From Aristaeella hokkaidonensis (GTDB lineage Bacteria; Bacillota; Clostridia; Christensenellales; Aristaeellaceae): DNA of 64,000 nt. This document shows, piece by piece, positions 5,095 through 54,115 of this stretch. The notes under the pieces are model-generated. The model searched no databases, was not told the DNA's origin, and saw nothing but the letters and a program-made list of their open reading frames with translations. The DNA is taken from the NCBI RefSeq assembly GCF_018128945.1, contig NZ_CP068393.1:558001-622000 (forward strand), written 5' to 3'. Positions within the stretch are counted from its first letter, which is position 1, and each line of letters starts with the position of its first letter. Made by a program: the position numbers and the translations under genes.

Positions 5095-5149
5095 GTAAGT
5101 CCTCCCAAATAAGAGATGACAATATTATAGCATAGAGTAAGGGTGTAAA

Positions 5150-5283
5150 TGAAATAAATCAGCTTCGCTGATTTGTGAAATATTTGACTTCCGTCAAATA
5201 TGAAATATTGAGCCGCAAACGGCTCAATGTGAAATATCCGGGCTTACGCCGGATATGAGAGTAAGTTGTTTCCTGATTCTGTA
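5150..5283. repeat. Tandem-hairpin repeat, copy A
   Basis: Four short inverted repeats are separated by the spacer TGAAATAT: 5157-5173, 5180-5201 (9-base-pair arms ATATTTGAC/GTCAAATAT), 5207-5228 (ATTGAGCCG arms) and 5234-5256 (ATATCCGG arms). A related tail ends in CTGTAA. A second copy with altered stems and loops lies at 6320-6448. The two copies bracket the LytTR-DUF3021 operon. Confidence 0.8.
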
Positions 5284-45511: not shown

Positions 45512-47905
45512 TTACTCCATGCAGGCCGGATAGAAGACCGGGGTGGGTTCTGGATCGGGCTGCTTGACATTGGGGTCTTTTTCCGGAGCCGGACCAAGGG
45601 AACTGAATGGCAGATCCAGCTTCTCTGCGTAGGTCTGGGCTGTGCTGCCTTCATATCCGCAGAGAAGAGCACGGGGAGATTCGTCAACGATATTGAAATT
45701 GTAGTCTTCGTTGATCTTTGATTCGTCCAGGCGGAGGTTTGCTTCCGGATTCAGGATGGTAACCTCTTTCAGGTTGGGACAGTCTGCAAAGGCAAATGCG
45801 TCAATGTTCCGCACACTGGCCGGAACAGTGATGCTTTCCAGGGCGTCTACCCAGGTGAAGCACATCCAGCCAATGGATTCCAGTCCATCCGGGAGCTCAA
45901 CGGTCTTCAGGTGATGAACACTCTGGAATGCCCAGGGGCCGAGGATTTTGGTTTCCGCGGGGAAATCATCCTTGCCCAGATGCTCTGTTTTCCGTCCGGC
46001 AGGATATGAAACCAGGGTGCCGGCGTTATCAAACAGGATGCCGTCCACAGACTTGCAGGTTTTGTTATCCGGGGAGACGTTGATGTCCGTCAGGTTGGGC
46101 ATGGAAGAAAAATGGTTGTAGAAGGACGCTCCGTTAAACGAGGCTGGAATCTCAATAACAGAAATCTGAGCACCACTGAGAGCGGCGCCTCCGAACCGTG
46201 TGGTTCCTTCCGGAACGGCATAGGTTCCGTTCACGTTCTTTCCGTCAGGATAATACAGCAGGACTGTCCTGTCAGCATTGAAGAGCACGCCGTCCACGGA
46301 GACAAAGTGTTTGTTGCCCTGTGCCACTTTGAACCGCTTGAGGGCGGGGGTGATATTGAAGGCCTGCATGGAACCGAGCGTCTTCAGGGAGGCAGGCAGG
46401 GTGATGTCAGAGAGGTTCGGGCAGTTGAAGAAGCAGTAGCACTGAATCTCCTTCAGGGTTTCGGGCAGGATGATTTTCCTGGCAATACATCCGTCGAACG
46501 CCCATTCACCCAGCACCTCAATCCCGTCAGGTACGGTGACCACTTCTTCATTGCCGGTATAACGCATCAGGGTTTTGTCCCGGACCTCGAAAACACCGCT
46601 TGTTTCCGGCTCGGCGGACTCGGTAATATCAGCTGTGTCAGTGTGAAGCACGATTGTATCAGGAGTCGGGACCGCAGAAGCAATGTCCTCGCTGTCTGCA
46701 GCAGTCTGTACACTGATTTCATCGGTTACTGTAAGATCAGTTGCTTCAGTGCTGACTGCTTCTGTATCGGCATCCAGAGCTTCAAACGCAATACCCCATC
46801 TGTCTGCATAAGCCTGCACACTGCTGTCTGCGGGTGCGCAGAGAACGACGCCGCTCCTGGCACCGGAGAAGATGTCATCTCCGGTGCCATCGAGTTCAGT
46901 ATCCGGGAAGCCGACGCTATTACTCCGGATGGTGACGCGTTCCAGCTTGTCGCAGTAACCGAAAACATAGCCGGAGATATAGCTCAAGGTTGACGGGAGG
47001 GTTACGCTTTTCAGGGAGTGTGCTCCGTCAAAGGCCATCCAGTCCACAGTCTGGAGCCCCTCCGGAAACTCGATCGACTTCAGGTTCCGGTTATCCTGGA
47101 AGGCAAACGCACTGATGCTGGTCAGTCCTTTGGGGAAATAATCTTTATCGAGTTCAGTCCCTGCTTTCCAGGCAGGATACAGTATCAACGATCCGTATCG
47201 GTCATACAGCACATCGTCCACCGTATAGAACCGACTGTTGCCTTCAGCTACGGAGATCTTCAGCAGTCCGGAGACACCGGTGAAGTCGCCGCCTTCGGAA
47301 TGCAGCTGGGTCAGGGTGGAGGGGAATTCGATAGCGGTCAGATCAGCACCGTCGAAGGCAGTGTATCCGAGCTCCTCCGTTCCCTCCGGAATGGCGTACC
47401 GGCCGCCTGCGTTTTTGCCGGCCGGATAGTAAAACAGCTTTTTACCGTCGGCGGAAAACAGCACACCGTCTATGGATTTATAGTGCTGATTGCCTTCCGC
47501 CACGTTGATGGCCTGAAGTTTCGGGTTGTTGTAGAAAACCTGTGCCTGGGTAATCTGGTCGCCATAGGTGTCGTCAATGTAATATTCCAGGTTCGTCAGG
47601 GAAGCAGGCAGGGTGATTTCCTCCAGCTCCGCACAGGAATAGAAAGCATAGCTGCGGATTTCCTCCAGGGTTTCGGGCAGGATCACCTTTGTCACGGGGC
47701 TATATTGAAAAGCCCATTCACCGATTTCCGTGACCCCGTCTGGAACGGTGACCTCACCGCCTCCCCCTGTATATTTCACCAGGGTTGTTCCTTTGATTTG
47801 AAAATTGTTGTCAGCGCTTGCCGCAGACACGGTGAAGCAGAGCATACACACAAGCAATATGCTGATGATAAGAGAAAAGAGTTTACATCCAGCCTGACGT
47901 TCCAT
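45512..47905 (-). CDS. Large exported BspA-type leucine-rich repeat protein
   Basis: 797 residues. Signal peptide at 1-31 (cleavage after TVSAASA). Two LRR_5 arrays follow, about 40-385 and 445-760. Both open with the same pattern, a basic VKYTGGGGEVTVPDGVTEIGEWAFQ-type entry, and contain the signature VAEGNxxxxSxDGVLFxxDxxxLxYYPxGK. A Thr/Ser/Asp-rich linker separates them (about 390-440). The Pro-rich tail may carry the attachment region, but no LPxTG sorting motif is visible. Likely surface-exposed and adhesive. It lies next to the cysteine-rich gene cluster. Confidence 0.9.
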   Translation of the reverse strand: MERQAGCKLFSLIISILLVCMLCFTVSAASADNNFQIKGTTLVKYTGGGGEVTVPDGVTEIGEWAFQYSPVTKVILPETLEEIRSYAFYSCAELEEITLPASLTNLEYYIDDTYGDQITQAQVFYNNPKLQAINVAEGNQHYKSIDGVLFSADGKKLFYYPAGKNAGGRYAIPEGTEELGYTAFDGADLTAIEFPSTLTQLHSEGGDFTGVSGLLKISVAEGNSRFYTVDDVLYDRYGSLILYPAWKAGTELDKDYFPKGLTSISAFAFQDNRNLKSIEFPEGLQTVDWMAFDGAHSLKSVTLPSTLSYISGYVFGYCDKLERVTIRSNSVGFPDTELDGTGDDIFSGARSGVVLCAPADSSVQAYADRWGIAFEALDADTEAVSTEATDLTVTDEISVQTAADSEDIASAVPTPDTIVLHTDTADITESAEPETSGVFEVRDKTLMRYTGNEEVVTVPDGIEVLGEWAFDGCIARKIILPETLKEIQCYCFFNCPNLSDITLPASLKTLGSMQAFNITPALKRFKVAQGNKHFVSVDGVLFNADRTVLLYYPDGKNVNGTYAVPEGTTRFGGAALSGAQISVIEIPASFNGASFYNHFSSMPNLTDINVSPDNKTCKSVDGILFDNAGTLVSYPAGRKTEHLGKDDFPAETKILGPWAFQSVHHLKTVELPDGLESIGWMCFTWVDALESITVPASVRNIDAFAFADCPNLKEVTILNPEANLRLDESKINEDYNFNIVDESPRALLCGYEGSTAQTYAEKLDLPFSSLGPAPEKDPNVKQPDPEPTPVFYPACME

Positions 47906-48080: not shown

Positions 48081-48233
48081 AGAAAAAGAAATCGAGCGGC
48101 ACCGGTAACCGGTGCCGCTCTTTGTGGGGGAAGGGGATAGGGAAAAAGGGAAATGTATGAAGAAACATCCTGCCGAATTCCGCCGGCAGTATCGGGATAA
48201 GCTTGATCAGGGCCGGCCGTTGTCCCTGTTGAC
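48081..48233 (-). ncRNA. Small-RNA gene, family copy 1 of 3
   Basis: Transcription is read on the minus strand from the promoter at 48271-48240. In order: a hairpin with CAGGG/CCCTG stem and CGGCCG in the loop (core at 48220-48208), a variable hairpin with CTGCCG/CGGCAG stem, the conserved GATGTTTCTTCATAC (48169-48155), a pyrimidine-rich stretch, and a 13-base-pair terminator palindrome (48120-48094) with TTTCTTTTT. Copies 2 and 3 keep all parts although the spacers diverge. No conserved frame exists. The family is unknown to me. Confidence 0.7.
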
Positions 48234-48239
48234 TAGGAC

Positions 48240-48271
48240 AGTATATCCCGGGAACCTTAAGTGAAGCTTAA
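48240..48271 (-). promoter_or_regulatory. Small-RNA promoter with tandem TTAAG boxes, copy 1
   Basis: On the minus strand two TTAAG boxes 11 bases apart (48271-48267 and 48260-48256), then 10 bases and TATACT (48245-48240). There is no good -35, which suggests an activator of the response-regulator type. Confidence 0.65.
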
Positions 48272-48323
48272 AGGAAAAAAAGAAAAAAGGGATCCTGAAA
48301 AGGATCCCGGGAAACAGCAAACC

Positions 48324-48617
48324 TTAATGCGGCCCGCAGGTGCAGTAGGTGCGGATATCCACGGTATACTCTGACACTACCCAGCTTTTATGACAGTAAT
48401 CGCAGGTATCCGTTCCGGTTACTTTCCAGAATTCCCGGATATGGGTATGCGGCCCATAATTATACTGGCAGAACCCGCAGTATACCGGAGCGTCTTTCTT
48501 CTGCCAGCTTTCCCTGTAGGTACAGTTCTTATGGGTACAGGCCAGCGCCGCAAAACACACCGACACAGCGGACAGCACCAAAGCAGCGGCAAGGATAAAC
48601 GCCAGAAGCTTTTTCAT
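48324..48617 (-). CDS. Small secreted cysteine-rich protein 1
   Basis: 97 residues. Signal peptide at 1-24 (ending CFAALA). The mature part has nine Cys residues, including CGFC, CDYC and CTCGPH, and several His, a pattern able to bind zinc or form disulfides. AGGAGAATAATACC precedes the ATG. It is a member of a tandem group of five paralogues (48324-50206) sharing the MKK-type signal, CxxC pairs and often a CPC end. The function is unknown; not a recognised bacteriocin. Confidence 0.75.
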   Translation of the reverse strand: MKKLLAFILAAALVLSAVSVCFAALACTHKNCTYRESWQKKDAPVYCGFCQYNYGPHTHIREFWKVTGTDTCDYCHKSWVVSEYTVDIRTYCTCGPH

Positions 48618-48729
48618 GGTATTATTCTCCTGTCAATGAAGAATTGGAATGATCCGCACCAGGCGAATCATTCCATAAAAACATTATGAATTTGCTGTTG
48701 AGATGCGTCTTGTAAACAAATGGGGTGGT

Positions 48730-49080
48730 TTAGTTCATATAGGTTGTCTGTTCGTGGATCTTTTCACCGCAGACACCGCAAAGGTCATATTCATAGAGCA
48801 GGTGCGGGGTGAGCCACTGAGTACGATGCTTCAGGTTGCAGTGATTCTGATAGGTTGTTGTGGTTTCCCAGTAGAGCGAATGGCAGCTTGAGCAGTAGAT
48901 CTGTTTGGAGGTGACGATTTTGTGCTGGGTACTGCCGGTGCTCGTAATGGTTTTCTGCGTATCAACGACGCCCGCAGTGTATTTTCCGCAGCGGCCGCAA
49001 CGCATGTTGCCTGCAAAACACAGGCTGGCGACAGAAAGAACCAGGACCAGGGCGAGACACAATGCGATAACCTTTTTCAT
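48730..49080 (-). CDS. Small secreted cysteine-rich protein 2
   Basis: 116 residues, the most divergent of the five. Signal peptide at 1-23 (SLCFAG). Three CxxC pairs: CGRC right after the signal, CSSC, and CGVC near the end. Between them lies a Thr-rich segment. It lacks the CPC terminus of copies 3-5. AAAAGGAGGATAG precedes the ATG. The CxxC pairs look like rubredoxin- or zinc-ribbon-like knuckles exposed outside the cell. The function is unknown. Confidence 0.72.
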   Translation of the reverse strand: MKKVIALCLALVLVLSVASLCFAGNMRCGRCGKYTAGVVDTQKTITSTGSTQHKIVTSKQIYCSSCHSLYWETTTTYQNHCNLKHRTQWLTPHLLYEYDLCGVCGEKIHEQTTYMN

Positions 49081-49178
49081 GATACTATCCTCCTTTTTTT
49101 ATTAGAACGATCCGCGGCAGACGGACCGTTTCTTAACCTGATATACAAACATCAGTCAGAATGTTGACAATCGACAGC

Positions 49179-49460
49179 TCAGTGAGCGCAGGGGCAGGTC
49201 TCGCTGAGCAGAACTGTCTTTGTTGTGGTGTAGTAATCATGGCAGTTCGGGCAGGAGTACACAGTGATGATATCCTTGTAGCTCATGGTGTGCGCATGGG
49301 TATAGGAATTATACCCGCACTTTGTCCATTTGGGCTTGGTATAATACGACGTTGTCTGATAAGTTTTCGTGTAATAATGGTTGGCGCACGCAGCCAAAGC
49401 TGTTACTGCAATGGAACAGATCAGGACCAATGCACAGATGAGAGCCACAGACTTTTTCAT
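49179..49460 (-). CDS. Small secreted cysteine-rich protein 3
   Basis: 93 residues from the ATG behind AAGGAGGG; the frame is open further upstream but has no start signal. Signal peptide at 1-23 (TALAACA). The mature part has WTKCGYNSYTHAHTMSYKD, then CPNCHDYY and a closing CPCAH. The motif CxYNxYxHxH and the end xxCPCxH are shared with copies 4 and 5. Cys and His spacing suggests one or two zinc sites, or disulfides. The function is unknown. Confidence 0.75.
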   Translation of the reverse strand: MKKSVALICALVLICSIAVTALAACANHYYTKTYQTTSYYTKPKWTKCGYNSYTHAHTMSYKDIITVYSCPNCHDYYTTTKTVLLSETCPCAH

Positions 49461-49550
49461 GGAATAACCCTCCTTAATATAAAATAATAGTTTAACCCGG
49501 TTTACACGAAACCGGAAAAGAGACAATGATCAGAAAACATCATCAGACAA

Positions 49551-49835
49551 TCAGGGCTGGCAAGGGCAGCTCTGGTTGATAAACGTCTTGACGATCTTGG
49601 TATAGGTATCACCGCACTTCGGGCAGTAGTACACATACACCTTATCTTCATAGTTCAGAAAATGTGGATGGACATACTGGTTATATTCACAGGTTGTCAT
49701 GCAGTAGGGAACGGAAGATGTACCTGCAACTGTTTCGTGAACCAGAATATACGTGTGGGTGCATGCGGCCAGAGCAGTTGCCACAACGGAACAAACCAGA
49801 ACTAGAGCACAGATGAGAGCCAGGAACTTTTTCAC
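49551..49835 (-). CDS. Small secreted cysteine-rich protein 4
   Basis: 94 residues from a GTG start with AAGGAGGAG upstream. Signal peptide at 1-24 (TALAAC). Mature part: TCEYNQYVHPHFLNYED, CPKCGDTY and a CPCQP end. Closely aligned with copies 3 and 5 in length and motif order. The likely fold is a small treble- or knuckle-like domain; the function is unknown. Confidence 0.75.
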   Translation of the reverse strand: MKKFLALICALVLVCSVVATALAACTHTYILVHETVAGTSSVPYCMTTCEYNQYVHPHFLNYEDKVYVYYCPKCGDTYTKIVKTFINQSCPCQP

Positions 49836-49921
49836 GGGGTACTCCTCCTTATAAAAGATTTGTTAGGGAACCGGGGAAGAAATAACGAACAGAGAACTAA
49901 TAGCAGACAATTATCTTTATG

Positions 49922-50206
49922 TCAGTGTACGCAGGGGCATGTTTCACTAAGAAAAACCGTAATGTATTTCACATAAGAGCGGTCACAGATGTGACAGTAA
50001 TACACATTGGCTTTTTCCATGTACTTGATGGTATGCGCATGCATGTAGGGATTATACGCACACTGAACCCATCGGGGCTCTGTCCAGGTTCTGGTAATGG
50101 TTGAATAGACAAGTGTTTGGCCAGGGTGATCACATGCAGCCAGAGTCACTGCCGCGATGGAGCAGACCAATACCAGGGCACAGATGAAAGCGATAAACTT
50201 TTTCAT
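49922..50206 (-). CDS. Small secreted cysteine-rich protein 5
   Basis: 94 residues from the ATG behind GGGAGGG; an in-frame upstream extension lacks a start signal. Signal peptide at 1-24 (AVTLAAC). Mature part: WVQCAYNPYMHAHTIKYME, CHICDRSY and a CPCVH end. It is the first gene in the transcription direction, so a promoter for the cluster should lie between 50207 and about 50370. The nearest recognisable upstream element is small-RNA copy 2. Confidence 0.75.
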   Translation of the reverse strand: MKKFIAFICALVLVCSIAAVTLAACDHPGQTLVYSTITRTWTEPRWVQCAYNPYMHAHTIKYMEKANVYYCHICDRSYVKYITVFLSETCPCVH

Positions 50207-50372
50207 TGACAGACCCTCCCAATAAAGTATTAAGTTATTGCCGACAACGCAGAGAGCATACACAAAAAGGCATCCCAATACTACCCAACCTGCACAACTG
50301 GTCAGTTTATCTGCATCATTGGAAGAGAATTAATCAAACAAACTGAAAAACTGCTCATTCTTTGTGATGACA

Positions 50373-50506
50373 TAAAGAAAAGACAGCGCCTGCTGCGCTG
50401 CCTGAAGGAGGAGAAAAAGAGTATGAAGAAACATCTGCTGCTGGGGCCCTGGTCCGGCAGGGAGATGGTATTCACTAGATCAGGGTCGGCCGTTTCCCCT
50501 GTGAAC
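50373..50506 (-). ncRNA. Small-RNA gene, family copy 2 of 3
   Basis: Minus strand. Stem CAGGG/CCCTG with CGGCCG in the loop (core 50493-50481), a variable hairpin beginning CATCT and ending AGATG, the conserved GATGTTTCTTCATAC (50435-50421), then a pyrimidine run containing TCTCCTCCTTC (50414-50404), an anti-Shine-Dalgarno sequence. The terminator stem is CAGCGC/GCGCTG (50400-50384) with TTTTCTTTA. It lies directly upstream of the cysteine-rich gene cluster. Confidence 0.7.
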
Positions 50507-50512
50507 AACTGT

Positions 50513-50544
50513 AATATAATTGGCGAACCTTAAATGAGTCTTAA
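50513..50544 (-). promoter_or_regulatory. Small-RNA promoter with tandem TTAAG boxes, copy 2
   Basis: On the minus strand TTAAG at 50544-50540 and 50533-50529 (11 bases apart), then 10 bases and TATATT (50518-50513). Confidence 0.65.
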
Positions 50545-50567
50545 CAAAACAATACAAATTAAAAAAT

Positions 50568-50612
50568 GAGTTCAATTTGGTCATTTCCCCCCAAAATGAC
50601 TAAATTGAACTC
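50568..50612. repeat. Long inverted repeat, 19-bp arms
   Basis: GAGTTCAATTTGGTCATTT (50568-50586) pairs with 50594-50612 with one G-T pair; the 7-base loop is C-rich. It is the main feature of 50545-50850 apart from a short GGGGGCAG/TGCCTCC stem. No poly-T end on either strand, so not a simple terminator. It could be a regulatory RNA, a mobile-element end or a regulator site. Confidence 0.6.
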
Positions 50613-50853
50613 GGGAATGATGCAATTGAAAAGGGGGCAGCATCCCTGAATACTGCCTCCATACATAAGAAGGAGAGCATGAAGAAACTCTCTGCTTGCG
50701 TACACAGTATACGCCCAGAACACCCCCGGAACCACTGAACCTGCATAAGTGGTCGAAAAAACTGCAGAATTGGTAAAAACAGTATCCAAACGCTTCCGGC
50801 GTGTTACAAGTATTGCGGCGAAGTAACATTGGTGTAAAATCCCGCCAAACCTG

Positions 50854-50882
50854 TTGTTTTCAAACTTTCCGCATGATATATT
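50854..50882 (+). promoter_or_regulatory. Promoter of the rhomboid gene
   Basis: TTGTTT, a 17-base spacer and TATATT, 39 bases before the rhomboid start. Confidence 0.6.
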
Positions 50883-50921
50883 GCAAACAGACCCGGAGTA
50901 TAAACACAACAGGAGACGAGT

Positions 50922-51635
50922 ATGGCTGGTTCAGTAATCATCACTTGCAAGAAATGCGGCATGCCGCTGAAGAAGGGTACCAAGGTCTGCTCCTACTGCA
51001 GGCAGGATACCGGTTATCTGATTAACCGTGCCCCGAAGGAAAAGAAAACAGGCATCCGGATCCTGGGACACACGATCCGGCTTCCCTGGGTCACTTTGAT
51101 CCTTGTTCTCCTGAATGCCCTTGCGGGCATTTACAAGCTGGCCGGGGGAGAATATGACGTACTCCGCAACTTCGGTATGTACCAGGGTGCCCTCCAGCAG
51201 GGAGAGTATGGCAGGATTATCCTGAGCAGCTTCCTGCACCTGGGCTTCCCGCACTTTATCGGCAACATGTACGCCCTGCTGACCTACGGCTTCGTCTTTG
51301 AGAACCGCATCGGCAGGTGGAAGTACCTGGCCATCTACCTGGTCTCCATGCTTGGTTCCGCCCTGCTCATCAACTTCGTGGGCGGTAACGCCATCCATGC
51401 CGGTGCCAGCGGCGCCATCTGGGGCCTCATGGCAGCCAACCTCCTCTATTGCATCTTCACCCGCAGGAAGTTCCTCTATATGCTCTATGCCCTCCATGCG
51501 GTCATCGGTAACGTCCTTTACACCTTCTCCTCCCACGTCAGCTGGCAGGGCCACTTCGGCGGAGCCATCGCCGGAGCCCTGATCGCCCTTCTGCTCTTCG
51601 CCAAGGAAAGAAAAGAAAGTAAACCGATCTTCTGA
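50922..51635 (+). CDS. Rhomboid intramembrane serine protease with N-terminal zinc ribbon
   Basis: 237 residues. Residues 9-26 form a zinc ribbon (CKKCGMPLKKGTKVCSYC). Six transmembrane helices follow. The rhomboid active site is Ser163 in GASGAIWG and His211 in GHFGG, with HFIGNMYAL (HxxxN) at 111-119, so it should be active. It cleaves transmembrane substrates within the membrane. ACAGGAG precedes the ATG. Neighbouring small membrane and secreted proteins are possible substrates, an inference from position only. A strong terminator follows. Confidence 0.93.
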   Translation: MAGSVIITCKKCGMPLKKGTKVCSYCRQDTGYLINRAPKEKKTGIRILGHTIRLPWVTLILVLLNALAGIYKLAGGEYDVLRNFGMYQGALQQGEYGRIILSSFLHLGFPHFIGNMYALLTYGFVFENRIGRWKYLAIYLVSMLGSALLINFVGGNAIHAGASGAIWGLMAANLLYCIFTRRKFLYMLYALHAVIGNVLYTFSSHVSWQGHFGGAIAGALIALLLFAKERKESKPIF

Positions 51636-51675
51636 AAAACAACAGACATAAAATAACAAACACAACAAAAGTAGC

Positions 51676-51699
51676 ATCCCGGCAGCTGCCGGGATTTTT
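51676..51699 (+). terminator. Intrinsic terminator of the rhomboid gene
   Basis: A 20-base perfect palindrome (ATCCCGGCAGCTGCCGGGAT) followed by TTTTC. Confidence 0.85.
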
Positions 51700-51704
51700 C
51701 ATGT

Positions 51705-51839
51705 AAAAAAGAAGGCAGCGAATCCGCTGCCTAAAGGGGAAAAGGGGAAGAGAAAGTATGAAGAAACATCACACCGGCGGAAAGAAAACCGGAAGTGATG
51801 GAATCCGCTAGACCAGGGTCGGCCGTTTGCCCAGTTGAC
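51705..51839 (-). ncRNA. Small-RNA gene, family copy 3 of 3
   Basis: Minus strand. Conserved hairpin with GGG/CCC stem and CGGCCG loop (core 51826-51814), a variable hairpin with CATCAC/GTGATG outer stem, GATGTTTCTTCATAC (51770-51756), a run of T and C (TCTTCCCCTTTTCCCC), and the terminator AGGCAGCG/CGCTGCCT (51732-51713) with TTCTTTTTT. It ends just before the rhomboid terminator on the other strand. Length about 135 bases. Confidence 0.7.
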
Positions 51840-51845
51840 GGGAAT

Positions 51846-51877
51846 AATATAACCCGGGTTTCTTAAATGTACCTTAA
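51846..51877 (-). promoter_or_regulatory. Small-RNA promoter with tandem TTAAG boxes, copy 3
   Basis: On the minus strand TTAAG at 51877-51873 and 51866-51862, then 10 bases and TATATT (51851-51846). Spacing is identical to copies 1 and 2. Confidence 0.65.
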
Positions 51878-52020
51878 GGGAATAACTTGATTTATATGAT
51901 AATGCTTTGGTCTTTGGCTGTATGATTACTTTTTTCCTATGAATAAATATGTTAATATACCAACAGATTATTATAATTAGCGCATTCAGTATTGTTGAAA
52001 TACATCAAGGAGTCATTTCC

Positions 52021-52344
52021 ATGAACGAAATCCGTGAATTGATGCAGGAAGTAATGACTTTTTCAGAAGAACGGGACTGGGATCAGTTCCATTCTCCGGT
52101 TAATCTGGCTAAATCTATTGCAATAGAGGCGGGAGAACTCCTTGAATGTTATCAGTGGAGTGATATTGCTGATCCTGAAGCAGTTGAAGAAGAGCTTGCG
52201 GATGTGCTGAACTATTGCTTACAGATGGCTGCGAAGCTGAATCTTGATCCTGCGGAGATCGTTCGAAAGAAAATGAAGAAAAATGCTGAGAAGTATCCTG
52301 TAGAAAAGAGCAGGGGGAGAAGCACGAAGTATGATCAACTTTGA
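52021..52344 (+). CDS. MazG-like nucleotide pyrophosphohydrolase
   Basis: 107 residues from the ATG behind AAGGAG. MazG/MazG-like fold: AKSIAIEAGELLECYQW (ExxE metal ligands) followed by EELADVLNYCLQMA (ExxD). It hydrolyses a (d)NTP to (d)NMP and pyrophosphate. The frame extends upstream but without a start signal. It overlaps the helicase gene by 14 bases, so the two are made together. The pair is richer in A+T than its neighbours by eye, a sign of transfer. In defence systems such enzymes deplete or alter nucleotides. Confidence 0.9.
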   Translation: MNEIRELMQEVMTFSEERDWDQFHSPVNLAKSIAIEAGELLECYQWSDIADPEAVEEELADVLNYCLQMAAKLNLDPAEIVRKKMKKNAEKYPVEKSRGRSTKYDQL

Positions 52345-54115
52345 CGTCAAAATCCGTGATTTTCCTTTTGACGGAACCAGTCAGTCCAGCATCGAACAGT
52401 GGAAAAGCGGAGACAGAGAATATGGCGCCAATTGGCCTGTTGTATATCTGATTCATAATGATGATACAAAAGAGGCTTATATTGGTGAAACTCTGAACGC
52501 CGGAAAACGGGCGGCACAACACTGGCAGGTTGAAGAACGGAAGCGCCTGAAGACCATTCATATTATGACGGATGACACCTTCAATAAATCCGTCATTCTG
52601 GATCTGGAATCTTTCCTGATCAAATACATATCCGCTGATGGGAAATATAAACTACAGAACGGTAATACCGGTTTGTCTGATTTCGACTATTACGACCGGC
52701 ATGAGTATGAAGATCAGTTTGGAAAGATATGGGCAAGCCTGAAGGAACTTGGCCTGGCAGAGAGCACAATTACAGATATTGAAAATTCGGATCTGTACAA
52801 ATATTCTCCCTATAAGACACTGACCAAGGATCAGGAAAAGGTTCTGGCTAAGATCCTTAGTTTCCTGACGTTCTGCCTGAGCGAGAACATGGAAGAGACT
52901 GTTGTTGTGAAGGGTGGAGCCGGAACGGGAAAGACGATCCTGGCGGTATTCCTTCTTAAACTCCTGAATGATCTGAAGAATAAGACCTATGAGGATAAAG
53001 AGGAAGAAGAGTCGGACATCAAGGTAAACAGACTTCAGTCCATTCTCGCGGAGAGACAATTGAAGATCGGCTTTATAGTTCCCCAGCAGTCTTTGCGGAA
53101 AACACTGAAGAAGGTTTTCAACCATATGCAAGGCATCCCGGAGAGCTTAATCATGACGCCAACTGAAGCAGCAATAGCAGCAAAAGACGAACCTTTTGAT
53201 TTGCTTGTTTGCGATGAAGCTCACAGACTGCGCAGGAGAGCAGCACTGAGCCAGTATCCGGCTTACGACAAAGTTAATCAGGAGTTGAATCTGTCAAAGG
53301 ATGCAACCGAACTGGACTGGATTATTCGATCCAGTAAAATGCAGGTGTTATTCTACGATTCTGCACAGTCCGTACGGCCTTCAGATATTCCGAAGGATGA
53401 TTTCACACATGTGCTGAACAGCCAGGATAACAGACAGATACTGAATCTGACATCCCAGCTTCGATGCCTGGGTGGAGATGACTATATCCAGTACGTTCAT
53501 GAAGTGCTAAATTACAAAGGATTCCTGAATGGACAAAAGCCACAGGAAACGGATTCTTTTGTTCTTAAAGAAGACGGGAACATGTGGCTTGCACCGCATG
53601 GTGAGTTTGAGGATTATACGCTCAAGTTCTATGATGATGTTGATCAGATGATGGATGAAATCGACAAGCTGAACAAGAAGTATGATCTGTGCTGTGCAGT
53701 TGCTGGTTACGCCTGGGAATGGATTACCAGAGGTGAACCCAGAGATACGACAAAACGAGATATTAACATCGGCAAGGGATACCTTTGGAACAGGACATAT
53801 ACTGACTGGATTAATTCAGATAGACTGCCTTACGAAATTGGATGTATTCATACAGTCCAGGGATATGACCTGAATTATGTAGGCGTCATATTTGGACCGG
53901 AAATCTATTATGACAAAAAAGCGAAGAGAATAGAAGTTGACAAGAACAAGTATAAAGATAATCTGGGCAAGGCTGTTGGAAATGATTATGAAGCGCTTCG
54001 CTCATATATACTGAACATATATGCTACACTTTTAACCAGAGGCATTCATGGCGCACTGGTTTATGTATGTGATCCGGATCTGAGGGAATATTTGAGACCG
54101 TATTTCAAATCATAA
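52331..54115 (+). CDS. GIY-YIG nuclease domain fused to DUF2075/Schlafen-like helicase
   Basis: 594 residues. N-terminal GIY-YIG domain at about 35-110: VVYLIHNDDTKEAYIGET, then AGKRAAQHW with the catalytic Arg60, and Glu93 in DLESFLIKY. The SF1-type ATPase (DUF2075) follows: Walker A GGAGTGKT at 195-202, DEAH at 295-298, TSQLRC, and a late HTVQGYDLNYVGVIFG motif. It should cut and translocate on nucleic acid. It overlaps a MazG-like gene. No methylase is nearby, so it is not a classical restriction system; anti-phage defence is the leading idea. Confidence 0.9.
   Translation: MINFDVKIRDFPFDGTSQSSIEQWKSGDREYGANWPVVYLIHNDDTKEAYIGETLNAGKRAAQHWQVEERKRLKTIHIMTDDTFNKSVILDLESFLIKYISADGKYKLQNGNTGLSDFDYYDRHEYEDQFGKIWASLKELGLAESTITDIENSDLYKYSPYKTLTKDQEKVLAKILSFLTFCLSENMEETVVVKGGAGTGKTILAVFLLKLLNDLKNKTYEDKEEEESDIKVNRLQSILAERQLKIGFIVPQQSLRKTLKKVFNHMQGIPESLIMTPTEAAIAAKDEPFDLLVCDEAHRLRRRAALSQYPAYDKVNQELNLSKDATELDWIIRSSKMQVLFYDSAQSVRPSDIPKDDFTHVLNSQDNRQILNLTSQLRCLGGDDYIQYVHEVLNYKGFLNGQKPQETDSFVLKEDGNMWLAPHGEFEDYTLKFYDDVDQMMDEIDKLNKKYDLCCAVAGYAWEWITRGEPRDTTKRDINIGKGYLWNRTYTDWINSDRLPYEIGCIHTVQGYDLNYVGVIFGPEIYYDKKAKRIEVDKNKYKDNLGKAVGNDYEALRSYILNIYATLLTRGIHGALVYVCDPDLREYLRPYFKS

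Follow-up and report, generated by a model that had tools for sequence, protein, structure and literature searches.

The window analysed here is a stretch of 64,000 nucleotides of the Aristaeella hokkaidonensis genome (contig NZ_CP068393.1, positions 558,001 to 622,000), which is held in a single contig of 3,390,518 bases and is 97.9 percent complete. Three similar units lie on its minus strand, at 48081-48271, 50373-50544 and 51705-51877, and had been taken in a preliminary description for a three-copy family of small RNAs around a cluster of cysteine-rich genes. Their coordinates, strand and shared promoter were all borne out, and the three units are best read as small-RNA genes with the parts listed below.

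48240..48271, minus strand: promoter of copy 1, TTAAG-N6-TTAAG-N10-TATACT (pattern match)
48081..48233, minus strand: putative small RNA of copy 1, about 153 nt; predicted ends, from 7 nt past the -10 box to the T-rich tail
48208..48228, minus strand: hairpin H1 of copy 1, loop with CGGCCG (alignment and covariation)
48166..48194, minus strand: central hairpin H2 of copy 1, with GATG at its end (alignment and covariation)
48157..48165, minus strand: anti-start of copy 1, TTTCTTCAT, antisense of ATGAAGAAA, followed by a C-rich run to 48121
48081..48120, minus strand: terminator hairpin and T-rich tail of copy 1 (sequence rule)
50513..50544, minus strand: promoter of copy 2, TTAAG-N6-TTAAG-N10-TATATT (pattern match)
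50373..50506, minus strand: putative small RNA of copy 2, about 134 nt; predicted ends
50481..50501, minus strand: hairpin H1 of copy 2 (fold, alignment and covariation)
50432..50467, minus strand: hairpin H2 of copy 2 (alignment and covariation)
50423..50431, minus strand: anti-start of copy 2, TTTCTTCAT, with the anti-Shine-Dalgarno CTCCTCC within 50404-50422
51846..51877, minus strand: promoter of copy 3, TTAAG-N6-TTAAG-N10-TATATT (pattern match)
51705..51839, minus strand: putative small RNA of copy 3, about 135 nt; predicted ends
51767..51800, minus strand: hairpin H2 of copy 3 (fold, alignment and covariation)
51758..51766, minus strand: anti-start of copy 3, TTTCTTCAT, with a C-rich run at 51733-51757

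The pattern TTAAG-N6-TTAAG-N10-TATANT has three mismatch-free matches in the 3.39 Mb genome, exactly the three units; with up to two mismatches, six matches are found genome-wide versus ten for a reversed-pattern control. Likewise, the invariant 15-mer GATGTTTCTTCATAC occurs exactly three times in the genome, each time in one of the units, and with one mismatch at a single further position, antisense within a coding sequence. The central hairpin of differing sequence, the pyrimidine run and the final hairpin followed by a T-rich stretch are present in every copy, the three terminator hairpins being unrelated in sequence, and the compared parts differ pairwise in length by 2, 5 and 7 bases. The 5' hairpin was upheld in part: its CGGCCG loop is there, but the stem of copy 3 contains a U-U mismatch, and the single-sequence minimum-energy folds of copies 1 and 3 lack the hairpin as drawn. 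The folds of copies 1, 2 and 3 have z-scores of -3.9, -0.8 and -2.5, respectively. At gathering score, Rfam (4227 families) matched no family to the three units, and a ylbH-leader hit on the plus strand of copy 1 was rejected (27.1 bits versus a threshold of 50). No description of this RNA family was found in the open-licence literature searched.

Homologues and covarying hairpins

A covariance model built from the three copies (R1) matched 10 of the 45 genomes of the genus, and a model of 13 sequences (R2) matched 21 of the 300 genomes of the family, namely 11 of the same genus, in which the RNA is present, and 10 others. With G011 added by R2, homologues of the RNA are found in 11 of the 45 genus genomes overall. 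Outside the genus, R2 hit 11 loci in 10 genomes; by eye, ten of these are protein-gene promoters, and the remaining one, L044, is an RNA. The count of three copies proved too low, as the genome of the window carries a fourth homologue at C1:3127320-3127441, besides the related unit u4 introduced below; when seven chosen genomes were scored more fully, R2 gave a count of four for the window's genome and likewise for G006 and for G031. A scan of named genomes matched 25 stretches, seven of which, from five genome bins, are the RNA; these Clostridia bins, of the same genus as the window's genome, are RGIG2719 and RGIG2654, both from goat omasum, RGIG5663, from sheep duodenum, as well as RUG095 and a CAMKEI bin. 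Eight of the 18 remaining stretches were inspected and rejected as lacking both boxes and H2 (L181, L188, L190, L195, L198, L199, L201 and L202); L199 has a -10-like sequence ahead of the match.

Most homologues keep the same order of boxes, -10 box, GTCAA (likely the transcription start), H1, H2 ending in GATG, linker and terminator. The covariation that the preliminary description had called for in further homologues was found on 26 aligned rows, where 84.5% of the H1/H2 pairs are formed and nine pairs are altered on both sides (17 such cells), although these counts are biased towards the model because the alignment was fitted to it. None of 500 shuffles matched any of five measures, and slid structures reached 31-57% pairing. 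H2 carries most of this support, and the register of H1 is shifted in the window's clade (71 percent paired). The boxes are absent from L055, L060 and L061, and the usual H1 from L039, L055, L060, L061 and L065; a hairpin with a T-rich tail 3' of the linker was seen in all 26 rows by a loose rule, weakly in L055.

The H1 stem varies around its loop, from CAGGG/CCCTG to GGGAG/CTCCC and GGGGG/CCCCC, and the retention of CGGCCG in 18 of the 26 rows despite the changing stem would fit RNAs that sponge a protein or dimerise through that loop, as a protein site or, as the preliminary description had proposed, by kissing, with the linker as a spacer. Its sequence is nevertheless missing from the other eight rows, G043 among them, and from the RNAs of another genus, and we regard such a mode of action as quite improbable.

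Two groups of loci depart from the usual layout. In G043 (L018, L025 and L061), the H1 loop or all of H1 differs from CGGCCG, the loops reading AAAGGATG or AAGGGTCG; H2 is kept, as are the boxes in two of the three. In G026, L060 (514-641, minus strand) and L055 (35-178, plus strand) have H2 and an anti-start linker but no TTAAG boxes, which gives the impression of an RNA body transferred to other promoters, and L060 has a palindrome-like AAAGTTTGCA..TGCAAACTTT in place of the boxes.

The linker as antisense of translation starts

In copies 1-3, the linker reads 5'-UUUCUUCAU-AC-(pyrimidines with CUCC or CCCC)-3'. RNA genes whose pyrimidine run could pair with Shine-Dalgarno (SD) sites had been proposed, and the proposal is supported and can be sharpened: the invariant GATGTTTCTTCATAC and the pyrimidine run together are antisense, in order and spacing, of an SD, a spacer and AUG-AAG-AAA, so that the linker should be able to pair with the AUG and the first lysine codons as well as with the SD. 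The preliminary description missed this antisense of AUG-AAG-AAA, as it missed the likely regulator and the extra copies. In copy 2, for example, the reverse complement of TTTCTTCAT-AC-TCTTTTT-CTCCTCC is GGAGGAG-AAAAAGA-GT-ATGAAGAAA, that is, a ribosome site, a spacer, a start codon and two lysine codons.

When an anti-start is defined on the reverse complement as an SD-like triplet, 2-13 bases, ATG and five purines, it is present in 14 of the 26 linkers, versus 4.2 expected from shuffled linkers; of these 14, nine belong to the window trio as found in three species, one to G017 and four to G026. Mean duplex energies to 29 Met-Lys/Arg-Lys starts were compared with those of 30 shuffled versions of each linker. 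All 30 shuffles were beaten by copy 2, u4, G017, G026b, G026c, G007, G043a and G248, and most of them by G026a (29 of 30) and by copies 1 and 3 (28 of 30 each). G007 and G043a do so though failing the anti-start rule, with which the energies otherwise broadly agree, and the best predicted duplexes join SD, AUG and AAGAAA.

An anti-start motif of the same kind stands in u4, a unit of the window whose promoter differs from the TTAAG-box promoter of copies 1-3.

50705..50773, minus strand: promoter of u4, two CCA..T.TGCAG-type repeats 21 bases apart (50773, 50752) and a -10 box TATACT
50628..50698, minus strand: u4, small-RNA-like unit, TTCTTCAT in a hairpin loop on the stem GAGAG/CTCTC, terminator-like hairpin; predicted ends

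u4 is found in 3 of the 45 genus genomes and is nearly identical in G031 (one difference in 201 bases). In G006, the matched stretch has 80% identity, with 38 of 39 core bases retained. In a second genus, 5 of 28 genomes were matched; three of the matches are RNAs (G248, G263 and G209), and one other precedes a protein gene. The three RNAs have the box promoter, an anti-start (TTTTTCAT, TTTCTTCAT and TTCTTCAT, respectively), a pyrimidine-rich sequence after it (CTCCCTCC, CTTCCTTTC and CCCCCTCC) and a terminator-like hairpin, and a different 5' hairpin.

Starts of the form AGG-N4-12-ATGAAGAAA number 99 rows and 83 distinct starts genome-wide, versus 9 for the reversed control; copies 1-3 and u4 are represented among them by their antisense. 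Inspection of 65 of the 83 starts yielded these four antisense cases, six other short frames and 55 frames of at least 60 codons or running off the fetched stretch, some of which are not sure starts. A signal-peptide-like N-terminal hydrophobic segment was counted in 40 of the 55 frames versus 97 of 395 background genes (Fisher 5e-12), using a rough purpose-made gene caller and a hydrophobicity rule on a background sample that has other starts and includes the window. Mean duplex energies of copies 1-3 are -18.5, -21.4 and -19.4 kcal/mol at the 55 frames and -14.3, -14.1 and -13.4 kcal/mol at 404 sampled genes. FMN_bind domains are present in four of ten proteins chosen from these targets; another of the ten is a solute-binding protein, and a further three gave no Pfam match.

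Two other explanations of the linker have to be weighed. First, the same small RNAs might chiefly bind the SD of many mRNAs through the pyrimidine run, the AUG-AAG-AAA match being a by-product and the targets no secretory class. Pyrimidine-rich linkers are indeed general in the family, the anti-start is missing from 12 of the 26, and several linkers bind starts other than Met-Lys-Lys equally or nearly equally well. Yet TTTCTTCAT is invariant in nine copies from three species while its flanks vary, an anti-start is found again in u4, G017 and a different genus, and the linkers of copy 2, u4, G017 and G248 bind Met-Lys-Lys starts better than every shuffle of the same composition; on balance this explanation appears unlikely. 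Second, the meaningful strand could be the plus strand, where each copy and u4 offer ATGAAGAAA behind SD-like purines, so that small Met-Lys-Lys peptide genes with good ribosome sites would create the antisense likeness. The frames that begin at this motif are, however, short and mutually unlike (17, 35 and 36 codons in the copies, 19 in u4), which leaves no conserved protein frame to explain the conservation. The promoter, the terminators and the covarying stems are all consistent with a gene on the minus strand, and homologues without the ATG retain promoter and hairpins; we have rejected the peptide reading as highly improbable.

Several observations weigh against pairing of the linker with SD-AUG-Lys starts. 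The 12 linkers that fail the rule are those of the fourth genomic copy and its relatives (G031, G006 and G027), two of G001, three of G043, and those of G036, G007 and G011, and there is no clear win in the duplex test for cp4, G001a, G001b, G027, G043b and G036 (7 to 30 of 30 shuffles equally good), with start regions of the window's genome standing in as targets for the relatives' linkers. The antisense rule is post hoc, having been tested after it was noticed. The linker is predicted to be only moderately accessible: mean unpaired probabilities in copies 1-3 are 0.88, 0.50 and 0.67 for the motif and 0.41, 0.67 and 0.75 for the 20 bases after it, the value for the entire RNA being about 0.5; the anti-SD part of u4 is mostly paired (unpaired probability 0.19). 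Finally, the neighbouring cysteine-rich genes are only average predicted targets (duplex energies between -7.8 and -19.6 kcal/mol for five genes with three linkers, the background mean being about -14), are not top predicted targets and were rejected as main targets; the RNAs lie around this cluster, as the preliminary description said, in position only.

Candidate regulator and neighbouring genes

One match to the promoter pattern with a single mismatch lies just upstream of genes for an OmpR-family regulator and a kinase.

C1:2097485-2098165 (genome): OmpR-family regulator gene, preceded by a like box and followed by the kinase gene

Orthologues of the regulator (at least 80 percent identity) are present in 8 of the 45 genus genomes, all eight with a paired TAAG-N6-TTAAG box upstream. 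The RNA, as detected by R1, occurs in 7 of the 8 regulator-positive genomes versus 3 of the 37 regulator-negative ones (p 2e-5), though p-values overstate here because related genomes are not independent. The kinase gene itself starts with ATGAAGAAA after GGAGG (duplex -23.3 kcal/mol), which suggests possible feedback. In other genera, box promoters precede secreted proteins, VTC-domain proteins and one protein resembling, by eye, the L010 membrane-fusion protein, and look like those of an envelope regulon.

Control by this regulator has its own difficulties. Four of the eight orthologues have ATAAG as first box and a poor -10 box, the RNA-bearing G007, G011, G026 and G043 are without a close orthologue, the nearest regulator of G248 is without a box in the 260 bases inspected, and the weaker box matches L009 and L010 are at the level of the reversed control. 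In G043, a 48 percent relative of the regulator has a similar box.

Between copies 1 and 2 lies the cysteine-rich cluster; the other features noted in the window are listed with it.

48324..50209, minus strand: five tandem small secreted cysteine-rich genes, starting at 50209, 49835, 49460, 49080 and 48617
45512-47905, minus strand: BspA-type leucine-rich-repeat protein, directly downstream of copy 1
5147-5240, plus strand: Gut-1 RNA (RF01706), 50.8 bits versus a gathering score of 50
51949-52344, plus strand: MazG-like protein, beside the next
52331-54115, plus strand: Schlafen group 3 helicase domain protein with a weak GIY-YIG match

Four of the cysteine-rich genes start with ATGAAAAAG and one with GTGAAAAAG. 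A repeat pair like that of u4, also 21 bases apart (50322, 50301), lies upstream of the gene starting at 50209. The five proteins have no Pfam or NCBIfam match above cut-off and show weak zinc-ribbon-like matches. The Schlafen-domain and MazG-like proteins are possibly a defence or mobile pair.

Relation to known small RNAs and proposed role

The closest comparison is with the streptococcal csRNAs (ccnA-E and kin) of the CiaRH regulon, which excerpts of PMC3091779 describe as several intergenic siblings per genome, of 51-202 nt, with TTTAAG-N5-TTTAAG direct repeats in the promoter and a terminator at the RNA end. Going by excerpts of that source and of PMC4507080, the architecture of the units and their predicted mechanism match those of csRNAs. 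All three copies have TTAAG boxes 11 bases apart from start to start with a -10 box 10 bases later, all appear to be short intergenic units ending in an intrinsic terminator, and all are complementary to SD and AUG, unlike the 12 homologues mentioned above. In contrast to csRNAs, the host belongs to the Clostridia, and the RNAs have H1 with its CGGCCG loop, a covarying H2 and an anti-start reaching into the AAG-AAA codons. The candidate activator is an OmpR-family regulator whose own gene is preceded by a like box; because it is only a possible counterpart of CiaR, and because the host is not a streptococcus, we file the units as csRNA-like rather than as csRNAs, in what is, judged from sequence, a new csRNA-like family.

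LhrC1-5 of Listeria are multicopy siblings under the LisRK envelope-stress two-component system that bind lapB, a cell-wall protein mRNA, and each has three CU-rich motifs; no anti-AUG block is named in the excerpts of PMC4132741 from which this is taken. The resemblance is looser than that to csRNAs and consists of multicopy sibling RNAs and a presumed envelope-stress control. Rfam includes LhrC and RsaE, and neither was matched to the units among its 4227 families. RsaE, which the preliminary description had invoked, stands for the idea of C-rich anti-SD motifs in Firmicutes and differs from these units in promoter, hairpins and anti-AUG block; this comparison is weaker than that with csRNAs.

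What the sequences show is the gene anatomy, the homologues, the covariation, the shared boxes and the antisense match; transcription, control by the regulator, pairing in the cell, repression and the envelope-stress signal are inferred. We consider it rather probable that the units are trans-acting csRNA-like small RNA genes that pair with SD-AUG-Lys starts and are likely activated by the OmpR-family system. That two-component system would activate transcription, presumably upon an envelope-stress signal, through TTAAG-N6-TTAAG boxes spaced by one helical turn, with the -10 box 10 bases further on. The resulting RNA would consist of the 5' hairpin H1, the covarying hairpin H2, the linker and the terminator. 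The sequence of the linker, UUUCUUCAU-AC-pyrimidines, would let it base-pair simultaneously with SD, AUG and first lysine codons of SD-AUG-AAG-AAA mRNAs. Many of the candidate target genes seem to encode exported proteins, FMN-binding flavoproteins and a solute-binding protein being examples, and the system's own kinase gene shares the start. Repression of secretory genes through base pairing is likely; in vivo, it would keep ribosomes from binding and thereby ease the secretory load while the system is active.

More tentatively, sibling RNAs driven by a two-component system might recognise a whole class of proteins by SD-AUG-AAR-AAA, the start of a Met-Lys-Lys n-region, and so lower much of the secretome together with their own kinase, the anti-start having also been taken up by u4 and by the RNAs of a second genus. 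If true, networks of the csRNA type would extend beyond streptococci to little-studied Clostridia of the ruminant gut, and a small RNA rule would address exported proteins as a class, through codons common to many signal peptides. Envelope-stress RNAs are known to reduce outer-membrane protein synthesis, and the RNAs described here would then be, in logic, their Gram-positive counterpart.

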